Origin: an uncultured archaeon
Lineage (GTDB): Archaea > Halobacteriota > Halobacteria > Halobacteriales > Haloferacaceae
Direction: 5' to 3'
DNA: 56,567 nucleotides
NCBI GenBank assembly: GCA_937138675.1
Contig: CAKZPG010000046.1
Location: 1-56,567 of the forward strand
This document shows positions 9,615 to 46,063 of this stretch, piece after piece. The notes beneath the pieces are model-generated. The model saw nothing but the letters and a program-made list of their open reading frames with translations. It was not told the DNA's origin and did no database searches. A program made the position numbers and the translations under genes. Every line of letters begins with the position of its first letter. Position 1 is the stretch's first letter.

Positions 9615-10934
9615 CTACGCGGGCAGACTGCCGGCCCGAGAACGTGCCCGTTCGACGACAGAGGGCCGAGCGCGGAACTCGAGGAGGACGTGGTCGTCTT
9701 TGTAGGACTCAGTCTCGACGTCGCCGTGGTCGTGGACCCACGAGACAAGACTCATCGTGTCGTCGGTCATCGGAATGTAAAGCCGCTCTTCCTGCCAGTC
9801 GGGGAGCTCGCGGTCGACCCGTTCGCGAAGGCCGTCGACCCGTTCACCGGTGAGTCCAGAGACGGCGACGGGATCGGGTGCGAGCGCCTCCAGTGCGGCG
9901 CGTTTCTGCTCCAGTTCCTTGTCGTCCACTTGGTCGACCTTGTTCAGCACAGTGACGATGGGTGCCTCGTTGCGCCGCGCGAGCGTATCGTGACAGGTGA
10001 CGAGTTTCTCGCGCATCTCGGCAACGGACTCGCTCGCGTCGACAATGAGGAGAACGAGGTCGGCGTGGTAGACAGAGCCGAGTGTCGAGCGGAACGAGTC
10101 AACGAGCCAGTGAGGCAGGTCCGAGACGAACCCGACGGTGTCGGTTAGCAGTATCTCTCGGGGCCCGACTTCGGCTCGGCGGGTGGTGGTACCGAGCGTG
10201 GTGAACAGGCGGTCCTCGGACTCGGCGGTGCGGTCGAGATCGGGGTGGAGTTCCTCGTTCTCGTCGACGTCGTGGTCTGCCGCGAGGCGGCGCAGGAGCG
10301 TCGACTTCCCGGCATTCGTGTAGCCCGCCAGCGCGACGAGATCGAACCCCGAGGCGCGGCGCTTTTCGCGACGGCTCTCCTCAGTTTCCGCGATTTGGTC
10401 GAGTTCGTCTCTAATGACCGCGATCTGTGACTTAATATCCTGTTCGCGGCTTTCGTCGTACTCGCCCAGGCCCATGAATCCGGGGCGCTCGTCCCGCTTT
10501 GCGAGTGAGGCCTTTGCCTCGGCGCGCGGGAGTTCGTAGCGGAGTTCTGCGAGTTCGACCTGTAGCTGGGCGGTCCGGGTGTTGGCGCGCTGGCCGAATA
10601 TCTCGAGAATAAGCGTGAAGCGGTCGACCACCTCGGCGCCAGTCGAGAGCTTTCCACCGATGTTATACGTCTGGTAGGGCCCGACCCGGTTGTCGACGAC
10701 GGCGACTTCGGCGCCCGTGCGCGCAACCACCTGTGTCAGTTCGTCGACTTTACCCTCACCAAACATGTAGGCAGCGTCCTCGGTTCGGGTCTGGGTCAGT
10801 TCGCCGACGACCTCGTAGCCCGCCGCCCGGGCGAGGTCGCGAATCTCGGTGAGGTCGGCATCGCCCTCGTCGACGCGCTTGGCGACGACGGCGGGCGTGG
10901 CGTCCTCAGTATCGTGGGACGTGCTGATGGCTGT
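9615..10934 (-). CDS. hflX: GTPase HflX (conserved reading extends upstream of the only in-frame ATG at 10766)
   Basis: GEGKVDELTQVV, ALAGYTNAGKSTLLRRL, DTVGFVSDLPHWLVDSFRSTL, NKVDQ; upstream in-frame DLTEIRDLARAAGYEVVGELTQTRTEDAAYM. Confidence 0.85.
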   Translation of the reverse strand, partial: TAISTSHDTEDATPAVVAKRVDEGDADLTEIRDLARAAGYEVVGELTQTRTEDAAYMFGEGKVDELTQVVARTGAEVAVVDNRVGPYQTYNIGGKLSTGAEVVDRFTLILEIFGQRANTRTAQLQVELAELRYELPRAEAKASLAKRDERPGFMGLGEYDESREQDIKSQIAVIRDELDQIAETEESRREKRRASGFDLVALAGYTNAGKSTLLRRLAADHDVDENEELHPDLDRTAESEDRLFTTLGTTTRRAEVGPREILLTDTVGFVSDLPHWLVDSFRSTLGSVYHADLVLLIVDASESVAEMREKLVTCHDTLARRNEAPIVTVLNKVDQVDDKELEQKRAALEALAPDPVAVSGLTGERVDGLRERVDRELPDWQEERLYIPMTDDTMSLVSWVHDHGDVETESYKDDHVLLEFRARPSVVERARSRAGSLPA

Positions 10935-10983
10935 CGGTCACCTCATAGGAAGTAGTGCCCGGGAGCTAATCAAGCTCTCGGCG

Positions 10984-40577: not shown

Positions 40578-41963
40578 CTACCGCTTCCCTAGAGCCTCCT
40601 CGAACACTCGCTGTGCGCGCTCGTAGCCATGGTTCCGGCCGACGATCGGGTCGGGGTAGTCGGGTGCGAGGTCGGCACGCTTCGCGTCCGTGAGTGTCGG
40701 CCAGTCGACGATCGCGTCCGCGGTGACGTCGCGCAGTTCGGGGACGTACGACTTTACGTAGGTCGCCTCCGCGTCGTACTTCGCCATCTGGCTCACGGGA
40801 TCGAAGATCCGCACGTCGACGGAGTCGGTGCCGGTCGAGGCGGTCCACTGCCAGTTGCCGTAGTTCGACGCGTAGTCGTGGTCGACGAGTTTCTCGAGGA
40901 ACTGCCGGGCGCCTCGCCGCCAATCGACGAGCAGGTGTTTCGTGAGGAAGCTCGCAACGACCTGCCGCGGCCGGTTGTGGATATACCCCTCTGCCTCAAG
41001 TTGGCGCATTCCAGCGTCGACGAGCGGGTAGCCCGTCTCGCCGCGTGTCCACGCCTCGAACCCCGCTTCGTCGTCGCGCCACGCAATCTCGTTCGGGAAG
41101 GTCGTGTAGTTGCGCTCGCCCAGTCCGGGGTTGTGAGCAAGGAGGTGGTAGTTGTGCTCGCGCCACGAGAGCTCGTAGCGGTATTTATTGATATTCTTCC
41201 GTTCGCGCCCGTAGACGGCGTCGTAGCGGTCGCTCGCTCCGGCCCAGACCTCACGGATCCCGATCATCCCCGCGGCAAGATACGGCGACAGCCGCGAGAC
41301 GGCCTGTGTCGGGGTCTCGACTGCCCGCGCGAGGTCGTCGCGGGTGTCATTATAGCTGTAGATCCCAGTGTCGAGAAACTCGTCGAACCGTTCGCGCGCG
41401 GCCGCAGAGCCCGCGTCGGGCAGGTCGATGTCCACGTTGGGCACGGGGACGGTCGTCCCATCGTCGACCGAAGCGAGCGCGTCGGGGTCGGGTTCTGCGT
41501 ACGGCGTCGCCTTCGGGGAGCGTTCCCAGTCGCCGTAGAACTGCGAGTGGGTCGAGTACGACGCGTCGAGTCGCCCGGGGTCGACCAGCACGAGGTCGGT
41601 GCGGGGCTCGGTATCGACGTCAGTTCCGGCGAACTGCTCCTCGACCGCCTGCTGTCGGTCGCGCCGCGACGGCCGGTAGTGTTCGCCGTAGTAGACCGCG
41701 TCGGCGTCGACCGCGTCGGCCAGCGAGGCAAGTTCCGTGGCGGTGTCGCCCGACCTGACAATCAGGTCACTTCCGAGTTCGCGGTACCGCTCTTTCAGTG
41801 CCCGCACGCCACGCATCTGGAAGCCGTAGTGGCGTCGGCCGACAGGTCCGAACGCGTCAGCGTCGTAGACGTACACCGGGAGGACCGTATCGTCTCGGGC
41901 CGCGACACTGAGGCCGACGACGTCGCGGGTCCGGAGGTCACGCTGGTGCCAGAAGAGTCGCAC
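40578..41963 (-). CDS. Deoxyribodipyrimidine photolyase / cryptochrome (class I type)
   Basis: VRLFWHQRDLRTRDVVGLS; WREHNYHLLAHNPGLGERNYTTFPNEIAWRDDEAGFEAWTRGETGYPLVDAGMRQLEAEGYIHNRPRQVVASFLTKHLLVDWRRGA. Confidence 0.95.
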   Translation of the reverse strand: MRLFWHQRDLRTRDVVGLSVAARDDTVLPVYVYDADAFGPVGRRHYGFQMRGVRALKERYRELGSDLIVRSGDTATELASLADAVDADAVYYGEHYRPSRRDRQQAVEEQFAGTDVDTEPRTDLVLVDPGRLDASYSTHSQFYGDWERSPKATPYAEPDPDALASVDDGTTVPVPNVDIDLPDAGSAAARERFDEFLDTGIYSYNDTRDDLARAVETPTQAVSRLSPYLAAGMIGIREVWAGASDRYDAVYGRERKNINKYRYELSWREHNYHLLAHNPGLGERNYTTFPNEIAWRDDEAGFEAWTRGETGYPLVDAGMRQLEAEGYIHNRPRQVVASFLTKHLLVDWRRGARQFLEKLVDHDYASNYGNWQWTASTGTDSVDVRIFDPVSQMAKYDAEATYVKSYVPELRDVTADAIVDWPTLTDAKRADLAPDYPDPIVGRNHGYERAQRVFEEALGKR

Positions 41964-42036
41964 GCGATCGGTAGGGGCTCCGCCCACGAGACTCCTTCGA
42001 CCGACGGGCGACTCGACGGGTCCTGGGACTTGACAC

Positions 42037-42059
42037 CCTCCCCGCGCTAAACCGCGAGG
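42037..42059. mobile_element. Solo IS200/IS605-like end hairpin
   Basis: ttgacaccctccccgcgctaaaccgcgagg. Confidence 0.45.
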
Positions 42060-42112
42060 CTCTCCCTTCGATTCTCCATAATCCGTTTGCCCCAGAGCCA
42101 CGTAGGGCTCCT

Positions 42113-42778
42113 GTGACAGACGCCCGAGACACGCTCCCCAGGGAGTCGCTCTCGCCGCTCGCCGCCCGCCTCGACCGCGTGTGTGCCCGCCACGGCTACG
42201 ACCTCCCGGCGGCCGCAGACGCGATAGACGCCGCCGTCTCCGGCGACGGCGGACTCTTCGACCCGTCGACAAGCTCAACCGAACTTGCGGCGGCGGCCGA
42301 GGCCCGTCTCGCGGCACCCACGCCACCGTCCCGGCCAGCGCTCGTGTTCGGCGACGGCAGAGCGGTTCTCTACACTGACGGGAGTTCGCAGGGCAACCCC
42401 GGCCCGGCCGGCGCAGGCGCAGTCGTCTGCGACGGCGACGGCAACCCGCTCGTCCGACTCGGACGGCCCGTCGGGTCGCACGCGGGCAACAACACTGCCG
42501 AGTACGCGGCGCTCGGTCTCGGCCTCGCCGAACTCCTCGCCCGGGGCGACCCAGCGCCTGCGGTCGTCGAAGTCAGAATCGACTCCCGGACGGTCATCGA
42601 CGATGTCTGGGGTCACCGCGAAGCCTCGGTCGGCGGCGTTGAGCGCTACCGCCGGCAGATCGCTGCCTTCCTGGCCGAGATCCCGACCCACCGCTATCGC
42701 CACCTCGAGAGCGCGGACCCCAACCCGGCGGACGCGCTCGCGACGGTGGGAGCAGACCTCGCCGCACTCGGACCCTGA
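42113..42778 (+). CDS. rnhA: Ribonuclease HI with N-terminal extension
   Basis: AVLYTDGSSQGNPGPAGAGAVVCDGDGN…NNTAEYAALGLGLAELL. Confidence 0.92.
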   Translation: MTDARDTLPRESLSPLAARLDRVCARHGYDLPAAADAIDAAVSGDGGLFDPSTSSTELAAAAEARLAAPTPPSRPALVFGDGRAVLYTDGSSQGNPGPAGAGAVVCDGDGNPLVRLGRPVGSHAGNNTAEYAALGLGLAELLARGDPAPAVVEVRIDSRTVIDDVWGHREASVGGVERYRRQIAAFLAEIPTHRYRHLESADPNPADALATVGADLAALGP

Positions 42779-42830
42779 CCCCGATCCGCGAGTATATGCC
42801 TGTCTGGGCCTTATTACACGAAACGCACGG

Positions 42831-43733
42831 ATGCTCGGCTACGCCTGTACGAACCACACCCTCCGAGAGCGCGACCCGCCGCTGCGGTGTAACCGCAACA
42901 TGCGCAAGGCGACGTTCGCAGAGCGCGGCCCGTCGTACGCCTCGGAGCTGACGCTCCAGAACTTCGAAGATCTCCACGCGATCCTGCAGTGGAACGCCGA
43001 CCACGACGTTCAGTTCTACCGCTGTACCTCGACGCTCGTCCCGTGGAACTCGCAGTTCGACCTCGCTGCCCTCCCGGACTACGAAGCCATCCGCGCTGTC
43101 GCCGAACGGTGTGGTGCCAAGATAGAGCGCGAGGAGATGCGCCTGACCTTCCACCCGGACTACTGGTGTCGGCTCGCGAGCGACAGCGCCGACACTCGTG
43201 CGAACTCCGTCAAGGCAGTCGAGTATCACGCCGACTGGCTCGACCTGATGGGCCTCGACCGCTCGCCGTACCACGGGACCGTCGTCCACGTCGGCGCGAC
43301 CTACGGTGACAAGGCCGCCACGGCCGAGCGACTCCGGGACGCCGTCGCGGCCCTCTCGCCTGGCGCACGTGCGCGCCTGACTGTCGAGAACGACGACAAA
43401 GAGAGCCTCTGGAGCGTCCCCGAACTCGTCGACGCCCTCGACGGAACCGACGTGCCCGTCGTCTTCGACTACCATCACCACGCGTTCACCGACCGCGGGC
43501 TGACCTACCGCGAGGCGTTCGACCTCGCGGCCGAGACGTGGGGCGACGTCCGCCCGGCGACACACTACTCCGAGCCGGCGCGGCTTCACGGCGCCGACGC
43601 GCGCCCGCAAGCTCACGCCGAGTTCCCGGCGCACGTCCCAGGGTGGCTCCGCGAGCGCTCAGACGTGATGGTAGAGGCCGACGGCAAGGAGCAGGCGGTG
43701 TTCGGCGTGCGCGACGCCGCGCCAGACGCGTAG
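42831..43733 (+). CDS. uvsE: UV damage endonuclease UvdE/UvsE
   Basis: MLGYACTNHTLRERDPPLRCNRNMRKAT, FYRCTSTLVPW, ARLTVENDDKESLWSVPELVD, PVVFDYHHHAF. Confidence 0.92.
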   Translation: MLGYACTNHTLRERDPPLRCNRNMRKATFAERGPSYASELTLQNFEDLHAILQWNADHDVQFYRCTSTLVPWNSQFDLAALPDYEAIRAVAERCGAKIEREEMRLTFHPDYWCRLASDSADTRANSVKAVEYHADWLDLMGLDRSPYHGTVVHVGATYGDKAATAERLRDAVAALSPGARARLTVENDDKESLWSVPELVDALDGTDVPVVFDYHHHAFTDRGLTYREAFDLAAETWGDVRPATHYSEPARLHGADARPQAHAEFPAHVPGWLRERSDVMVEADGKEQAVFGVRDAAPDA

Positions 43734-44230: not shown

Positions 44231-44668
44231 GTGGCAAACAACATCACCGTGACGGACTCGTACATCGAGTCAACCGAGCGCGTCCAGCCAGACCAAGCGA
44301 ACAACTACGAGAACGCTCACGGGGGCGAGATCGTGAAACTGATGGACGAACTCGCGGCCATTGCGGCGATGCGGATCGCTGGCGAGACGTGTGTGACCGC
44401 ACATATCGGGAGCGTGGACTTTCAGGCGCCGCTCCCGGTCGGTCACGTCGCCACACTCTCTGCGTACGTCTACGACACCGGCGACACCAGTCTCGACGTA
44501 CGCGTCAACGTCGAGGGGAGCGACCCTCGGACCGACGGGACGGAGACGACCACCTCTGCGTGTTTCACGCTGGTCGCCGTCGACGCCGACGGGCGGCCCG
44601 TCAAAGTGCCAGAGGTCGTCGCCGAAACTGACCGCGAACACGAACTGGTCGCGGCTGCGCCCTGTTGA
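44231..44668 (+). CDS. Acyl-CoA thioesterase (hotdog fold)
   Basis: NENAHGG-like NNYENAHGGEIVKLMDELAAIAAMRIAGETCVTAHIGSVDFQAPL. Confidence 0.88.
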   Translation: MANNITVTDSYIESTERVQPDQANNYENAHGGEIVKLMDELAAIAAMRIAGETCVTAHIGSVDFQAPLPVGHVATLSAYVYDTGDTSLDVRVNVEGSDPRTDGTETTTSACFTLVAVDADGRPVKVPEVVAETDREHELVAAAPC

Positions 44669-44866: not shown

Positions 44867-46063
44867 ATGCCAGAGTGTGTGGTTCTCGCCCGGCGCGACG
44901 GGCCCGACGCGACGGCCCCGACACCGGCGCTCACGGCGCTTCTGCGCCGACTCGGGGGCGAGGTCGTTGCGAGGGCGTCGCAGTCGCGCCGTGAACACAA
45001 CCACTACGCGGTGGGACCGGCCCTCGTCGATCAGGTTCGTGCGCACTGTCGCGACCACGACGCGGACACGGTTGTTGTCGACGGCCACCTCCACGAGGGA
45101 CAGGTCGTCGACCTCGCAGACGCACTTCCAGTCGAGACCGTCTGGGACCGCCGCGACGTCGTCTGGGCCGCCCTCGCCGCGGGGGGTAACGACGTAGCGG
45201 CGGCGCGACGCAGTCTCCGGACGGGACGGGTTGAGCGGCGACGTGTCGCGGCCGCTCGCCGCACCGCGGCTGCTGAGGGACCAGATACCGACGATGGCCG
45301 ACTCGCAGACCTTGACCGCCGCCGTGACCGGCACGAGGCTGCCCTCGCCGACGCCCGGAAGACAGCCCGCCGGGCGGCGCGCGAGGCGTACACGGACGTC
45401 GACGCTCATGTTGTCGTTGTCGGCGCGACTGACGCGTCGACGACACCGGTCTGGGCCGCGCTGTGCGACCGATCGGTAGAGGAGGAAAATGGAGAGGGAG
45501 CCGACAGCAGGCCGGTTGCCCCGGCGACCGCGACGACCGCCGTGACCCGTCTTGGCGCCTCCAAGGTCGCAGTGAGCGATGGCCCGGGACTGGTCGGCGG
45601 TGACGCGGCGTGGTACGACGGGGTCGTCCCCAACTGGACGGCGACGGTCGAGCGCGCGGCCGTCATCGTCGCCGTCGCCGACGGAACTCGTGCCGGCGCC
45701 GCCCTCCAGAGTGCGTGTGACCGGGTCAACGCGCCGGTCGTTGCCGTGACGCCCGACGCGGCCGCCGCGGTTCCGTCGACACGGGTGACCGCGACGCTGG
45801 CCGACACCGGTGACCGGCCGCCGGTGGACCGACTTCGCGGTGCGGTCGCCGACGCCCTCGCGGAGACAGGACTCGTCGCAACGCTTCCGTACAGAGACGA
45901 GGCGCACACGGTCGTCTCCTGGCTCCACGACCGCGGAACAGTCGCGGCAGTCGACTACGATGACCAGATCACAGTGCGGGTCGCGGTCCCGGCGTCGGCG
46001 ACAGAGGCGGTCCGGTCACGCGTCACGTCGGCCGGTGGGAGCGTCGCAATGGAGTCGGACTGA
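44867..46063 (+). CDS. HflX paralogue lacking recognisable GTP-binding motifs (pseudo-GTPase)
   Basis: C-terminal TVVSWLHDRGTVAAVDYDDQITVRVAVPASATEAVRSRV aligns by eye with SLVSWVHDHGDVETESYKDDHVLLEFRARPSVVERARSRA of HflX at 9615; P-loop position reads VVVVGATDASTTPVWAAL. Confidence 0.7.
   Translation: MPECVVLARRDGPDATAPTPALTALLRRLGGEVVARASQSRREHNHYAVGPALVDQVRAHCRDHDADTVVVDGHLHEGQVVDLADALPVETVWDRRDVVWAALAAGGNDVAAARRSLRTGRVERRRVAAARRTAAAEGPDTDDGRLADLDRRRDRHEAALADARKTARRAAREAYTDVDAHVVVVGATDASTTPVWAALCDRSVEEENGEGADSRPVAPATATTAVTRLGASKVAVSDGPGLVGGDAAWYDGVVPNWTATVERAAVIVAVADGTRAGAALQSACDRVNAPVVAVTPDAAAAVPSTRVTATLADTGDRPPVDRLRGAVADALAETGLVATLPYRDEAHTVVSWLHDRGTVAAVDYDDQITVRVAVPASATEAVRSRVTSAGGSVAMESD

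Follow-up and report, generated by a model that had tools for sequence, protein, structure and literature searches.

A conserved haloarchaeal side-branch of HflX with the predicted fold whole and the GTPase motifs lost

Can an HflX that has lost its GTPase motifs be kept by selection, and if so for what task? The question is raised by a gene in a 56,567-nucleotide stretch of DNA from an uncultured haloarchaeon (the window, meaning the whole stretch that was analysed), which an earlier note had read from the letters as a duplicated HflX retained as a nucleotide-independent pseudo-GTPase. The ORF lies where that note placed it, from the ATG at 44867 to the TGA at 46061-46063, and its N-terminal Met is kept in same-genus orthologues. 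The Pfam family GTP-bdg_N (PF13167) matches residues 22-99 (E 1e-8, 36.1 bits against a cut-off of 25.4), and the same Pfam search found no G-domain family in the protein. The NCBIfam model TIGR03156 gives a weak match (4e-6) whose 25.9 bits lie far under the equivalog cut-off of 216.75, and BLASTP against the canonical HflX of the window gives 8e-7, chiefly over the G and C-terminal domains. A phmmer search of the PDB returned a weak best match (E 0.52). Taken with the structural model described below, the sequence comparisons place the relationship beyond chance: ORF 44867-46063 encodes what is, by descent and predicted fold, an HflX relative (pseudo-HflX; Table 1).

Table 1. Coordinates of the pseudo-HflX gene, its predicted parts and its annotated neighbours in the window
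Feature	Position	Strand	Basis and remarks
HflX-family pseudo-GTPase gene	44867..46063	+	398 aa; homology and fold match
N-terminal domain 1 (ND1 of HflX), residues 1-94, contains VVVDGHLHEGQVVDL	44867..45148	+	Pfam, alignment, secondary structure
Helical arm (HD), residues 95-178, Arg-rich	45149..45400	+	Long helices H109-137 and H145-174 in model
Arm tip loop GPDTDDG, residues 138-144, at the position of the PTC-reaching HflX HD loop	45278..45298	+	Model; HD role from PMC12493154
Degenerate G domain, residues 179-318	45401..45820	+	Alignment, model
Former P-loop (G1), GATDASTTP replaces GYTNAGKST	45422..45448	+	Alignment
Former G3, DGPGL replaces DTVGF	45578..45592	+	Alignment
Former G4, VTPDA (approximate) replaces NKVD	45746..45760	+	Alignment
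C-terminal domain, residues 319-398, with LPYRDEAHTVVSWLHD	45821..46060	+	BLASTP, alignment, model
DNA photolyase	40578..41966	-	PF03441 1.9e-68; true start inside ORF 40578-42326, estimated
RNase H paralogue	42113..42778	+	PF13456 6e-9
UV-damage endonuclease UvdE	42828..43733	+	PF03851 1e-50; start estimated
4HBT thioesterase, directly upstream of pseudo-HflX (198 bp, same strand)	44231..44668	+	PF03061 4.7e-15

The canonical HflX of the window (9.6-10.9 kb) scores above the cut-offs of the Pfam and NCBIfam HflX models. The note had placed it at 9615-10766; it is a bona fide HflX, but its gene begins upstream of the ATG at 10766. In the window's genus and in a second one, canonical hflX lacks an ATG, GTG or TTG in frame ahead of the conserved N-terminus (window 10766-10960, minus strand, L115 and L119; L012, L013 and L018). 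At these loci the hflX frame reads TGA CCG ACA GCC ATC/ATT (TGA CAG CCA GCT ATC in L018), whereas other haloarchaea have an apparently homologous GTG start in frame with hflX; here GTG ACC GAC AGC CAT ... TGA forms a short ORF in a different frame from hflX. Since no in-frame start exists, either a +1 shift at the UGA or an AUC/AUU start with an upstream GAGGUGA-like sequence would be needed.

Alignment with the canonical protein bears out the three motif replacements listed in Table 1, which the note had recognized. The register that it gave for the N-terminal block is wrong: the VVVDGHLHEGQVVDL block aligns with VVDNRVGPYQTYNI, and GEGKVDEL aligns with YAVGPALVDQV. An AlphaFold2 model of the window protein, built with seven homologues, has a mean pLDDT of 81.9 and a pTM of 0.78 and contains all four HflX parts: ND1, an arm of two long helices, a G-like domain and the C-terminal domain. 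A PDB search with this model is headed by 14 full-length matches to HflX, HflXr or GTPBP6 chains bound to ribosomes (TM by query 0.62-0.68; best E 5e-16), after which comes Sulfolobus HflX. The member from Haloarcula argentinensis, modelled from the same eight sequences, gave a pLDDT of 85.0 and was led by the same 14 chains (TM by query 0.62-0.69 over both models). The structural overlay that the note had proposed thus returned the HflX fold for both proteins. The defining GTPase features were tested in the sequence and are absent, and the label "HflX GTPase" does not suit the window protein.

The loss is common to a clade. A genome search that took the aligned first members as query detected pseudo-HflX in 15 of 394 genomes of the order (E 7e-51 or better; canonical HflX starts at 7e-39), and this number is a lower bound because highly diverged members could escape the search. 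Two further genomes from the window's genus also carry it. Among the named bearers are Halohasta salina, Haloquadratum walsbyi J07HQW1, Halorientalis regularis, Haloarcula argentinensis and Haloarcula marismortui ATCC 43049, whose member lies on plasmid pNG700 and is annotated as "hypothetical protein" (WP_011222558.1). A scan of the named genomes with a single protein found no members, whereas the alignment-based scan did. Outside the haloarchaeal order, 120 sampled genomes of the phylum yielded none; the matches from this sample that were read are canonical HflX with intact P-loops. Intact ORFs are present in 16 genomes from six families, and homologues span 11 genera. An assembly gap, filled with N, breaks one same-genus orthologue (L008, G001:C7) and leaves only its ends readable. 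Among the 16 members with full sequence, both the P-loop GKS and the NKxD are missing from every one. In the helical arm an Arg-rich helix is conserved and a Gly/Pro tip is frequent; the arm has lost the "LQVELAELRYELPR" and the "GFMGLGEY" tip of canonical haloarchaeal HflX, the latter also being gone from an intact second paralogue, HflX2. Judged from these sequences and the models, pseudo-HflX is a conserved haloarchaeal side-branch of HflX with the predicted fold whole and the parts that hold and hydrolyse GTP lost.

In a tree with HflX from elsewhere in the phylum as outgroup, the degenerate members form one clade (support 100/100) within haloarchaeal HflX, so that a single loss of the GTPase motifs is enough to explain them on this phylogeny. 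The clade joins HflX2 at 100/97; the branches are long (stem 2.66), and the alternative grouping with HflX1 survives the AU test (p-AU 0.083). The placement with HflX2 makes pseudo-HflX an old side-branch. Of the note's reading as a duplicated and retained HflX, the retention stands, since orthologues exist and dN/dS is below 1; a recent duplication of the window's own hflX is ruled out by the tree. Families interleave, with Halohasta among members of Haloarcula's family; this pattern and the plasmid location point to some horizontal transfer.

Pseudo-HflX is held by purifying selection. Between the window and G002, dN/dS is 0.342 (95% 0.263-0.450), and between G078 and G137 it is 0.179 (0.126-0.245), both well below 1; a third pair (G250/G366, dS 0.02) is too close to inform. 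Of the five other reading frames, four give a dN/dS above 1, and the antisense frame that shares third positions is similarly low, as expected. A sequence artefact or antisense ORF is ruled out by these frame comparisons and by the homologues in 11 genera in the plus frame. For canonical hflX from the same genomes the ratio is 0.03-0.12, and the constraint on pseudo-HflX is therefore real but weaker.

In the window, the order of genes is photolyase (-), RNase H (+), UvdE (+), DUF5658 (-), thioesterase (+), pseudo-HflX (+) and a flippase-like membrane protein (+) for which no Pfam family scored above cut-off. The photolyase, RNase H paralogue and UvdE form a compact UV-repair island (40578-43733); the note had not remarked on these repair genes. 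When flanking ORFs were compared all against all, RNase H and photolyase ranked with the neighbours of pseudo-HflX that recur most often, and MrfA and MrfB, which repair mitomycin C damage in Bacillus (PMC11194089), came close behind. Within 13.5 kb, RNase H occurs in 4/11 genera (expected 0.32), MrfA in 4/11 (expected 0.25) and photolyase in 3/11 (expected 0.50; P 0.01, which would fail multiple-test correction alone). At least one of the three is present in 7/11 genera against 1.05 expected (P 1e-5), a value to be read knowing that the families were chosen post hoc, after they had recurred, and that genera are incompletely independent. None of the three was found within 13.5 kb of canonical hflX in eight genera, and five of the 17 bearer genomes have none of them near pseudo-HflX. 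RNase H directly adjoins the gene in five genomes (G077, G078, G137, G239 and G258), and UvdE lies beside it in G258 as well as in the window. On pNG700 (L121:8241-10107) an RNase HI family gene is divergent from pseudo-HflX with 85 bp between them, so a shared promoter region is likely. Relative to the repair genes the orientation of pseudo-HflX varies between same strand, divergent and convergent, and most of these arrangements are therefore not operons. PAS/histidine-kinase genes also recur; such genes are very numerous in haloarchaea, and for this reason we give them no weight.

What might such a protein do? Sequence, models and analogy lead us to regard as on balance probable that pseudo-HflX is a GTP-independent 50S binder, a slow-release anti-association or PTC-shielding stress factor from an old pseudo-GTPase branch of HflX that is tied to DNA damage. 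In HflX, ND1 contacts H69, the HD loop reaches into the PTC and the protein has anti-association activity (PMC12493154). Pseudo-HflX would use ND1 and its Arg-rich arm to dock on the large ribosomal subunit, with the arm tip directed toward the peptidyl transferase centre. It would neither bind nor cycle GTP, and so would act as a slow-release (hibernation-like) factor rather than as a cycling, splitting GTPase. The repeated placement of its gene close to RNase H, photolyase, UvdE and MrfA/MrfB points to a possible role when DNA is damaged, for instance by UV. According to the title of Blombach et al. (2011), as cited in PMC9067457, Sulfolobus HflX binds 50S in all nucleotide-bound states. E. 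coli HflX is reported to bind 50S with nucleotides present (PMC2686079), which counts against the GTP-independent reading. The rRNA contacts may also have been lost, because the arm sequence has diverged from that of canonical haloarchaeal HflX.

We consider it unlikely, though deserving of attention, that the protein has been repurposed off the ribosome as a nucleic-acid-binding accessory in DNA or RNA:DNA repair, as a partner of RNase H, photolyase or MrfA/MrfB. The repair genes clustered around pseudo-HflX and absent around canonical hflX, the adjacent RNase H and UvdE genes and the arm would fit such a role: the arm carries a net charge of +5 in the window protein against -4 in the window's canonical HflX, and across the clade it lies between +1 and +6 in 12 of 14 members (the remaining two have -3), against values of -4 and -3 for two canonical HflX. 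However, both models retain the complete HflX architecture, and every one of their top matches is a chain bound to the ribosome; the orientations mostly exclude operons, and the repair families were picked after the fact. Rather improbable, in our estimate, is a regulator of canonical HflX that would contend with it for one 50S site, or pair with it, and thereby time its action; the shared fold is consistent with it, as is the presence of at least one additional HflX-family match in every bearer except the incomplete G077. We find it hard to believe in a rebuilt pocket that still binds nucleotide. The G3 Asp/Gly (D.PG) is retained in 10/16 members, the switch I region is conserved in a new form (RPA.PTTAT.TVGPH) in many, and a G2-region Thr persists in many, which makes some residual ligand conceivable; but the P-loop and NKxD losses are universal among the full sequences and the G4/G5 region is shortened in most. 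A decaying duplicate free of selection, to which the faster evolution of pseudo-HflX might point (members are ~33-38% identical in each domain, HflX1 proteins 54-83%), is refuted by intact ORFs in 16 genomes of six families, dN/dS limits of 0.13-0.45 (95%) in the divergent pairs and residues conserved throughout all domains.

The candidate slow-release 50S factor can be set beside several known proteins. It shares with HflX itself (TIGR03156; E. coli, M. smegmatis) the four-part fold and homologous ND1, G-like and C-terminal domains, and differs in its missing signature motifs, its arm tip, its Arg-rich arm and its low model score. The nearest group in the tree, haloarchaeal HflX2 (L009, L014, L021, L023, L028 and L030), has the same short helical-arm tip and a "PGQ" or similar loop, yet keeps GYTNAGKS and DTVGF/L, and NKxD in five of six. 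Many haloarchaea carry such a second HflX with a shortened arm tip and largely intact GTPase motifs; it seems uncommon in the family that holds most pseudo-HflX bearers. Listeria HflXr, which is among the top structural matches of the models, is a specialised second HflX for antibiotic resistance, and like pseudo-HflX would represent a duplicated HflX specialised for stress; it is described as a working paralogue, whereas pseudo-HflX lacks the GTPase motifs and any known antibiotic link. Tsr1, an inactive mimic of translational GTPases on the pre-40S that is required for 40S maturation (PMC4895721), likewise has a GTPase fold minus the active site and serves as a precedent for the proposed mechanism, but it is eukaryotic, has an EF-Tu/SelB-like architecture, acts on the small subunit and has no kinship to HflX.

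HflX has been described as a nucleotide-driven ribosome splitter, and the open-access papers that were searched contain no HflX-type pseudoGTPase and no description of a pseudo-HflX clade. A conserved GTP-blind HflX, if true, would reveal tasks of the family that need no GTP, such as binding, anti-association and PTC shielding. Since a member is present in H. marismortui, the source of a classic 50S crystal structure, a direct test is possible. Tentatively, and with more doubt than confidence, we picture a ribosome-splitting GTPase made into a GTP-free factor that links UV or other DNA damage to translation, either by keeping large subunits parked for as long as RNase H, photolyase, UvdE and MrfA/MrfB are repairing the genome, or by acting directly at lesions or R-loops. 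The repair-gene neighbourhood raises a testable tie of archaeal translation control to UV damage.
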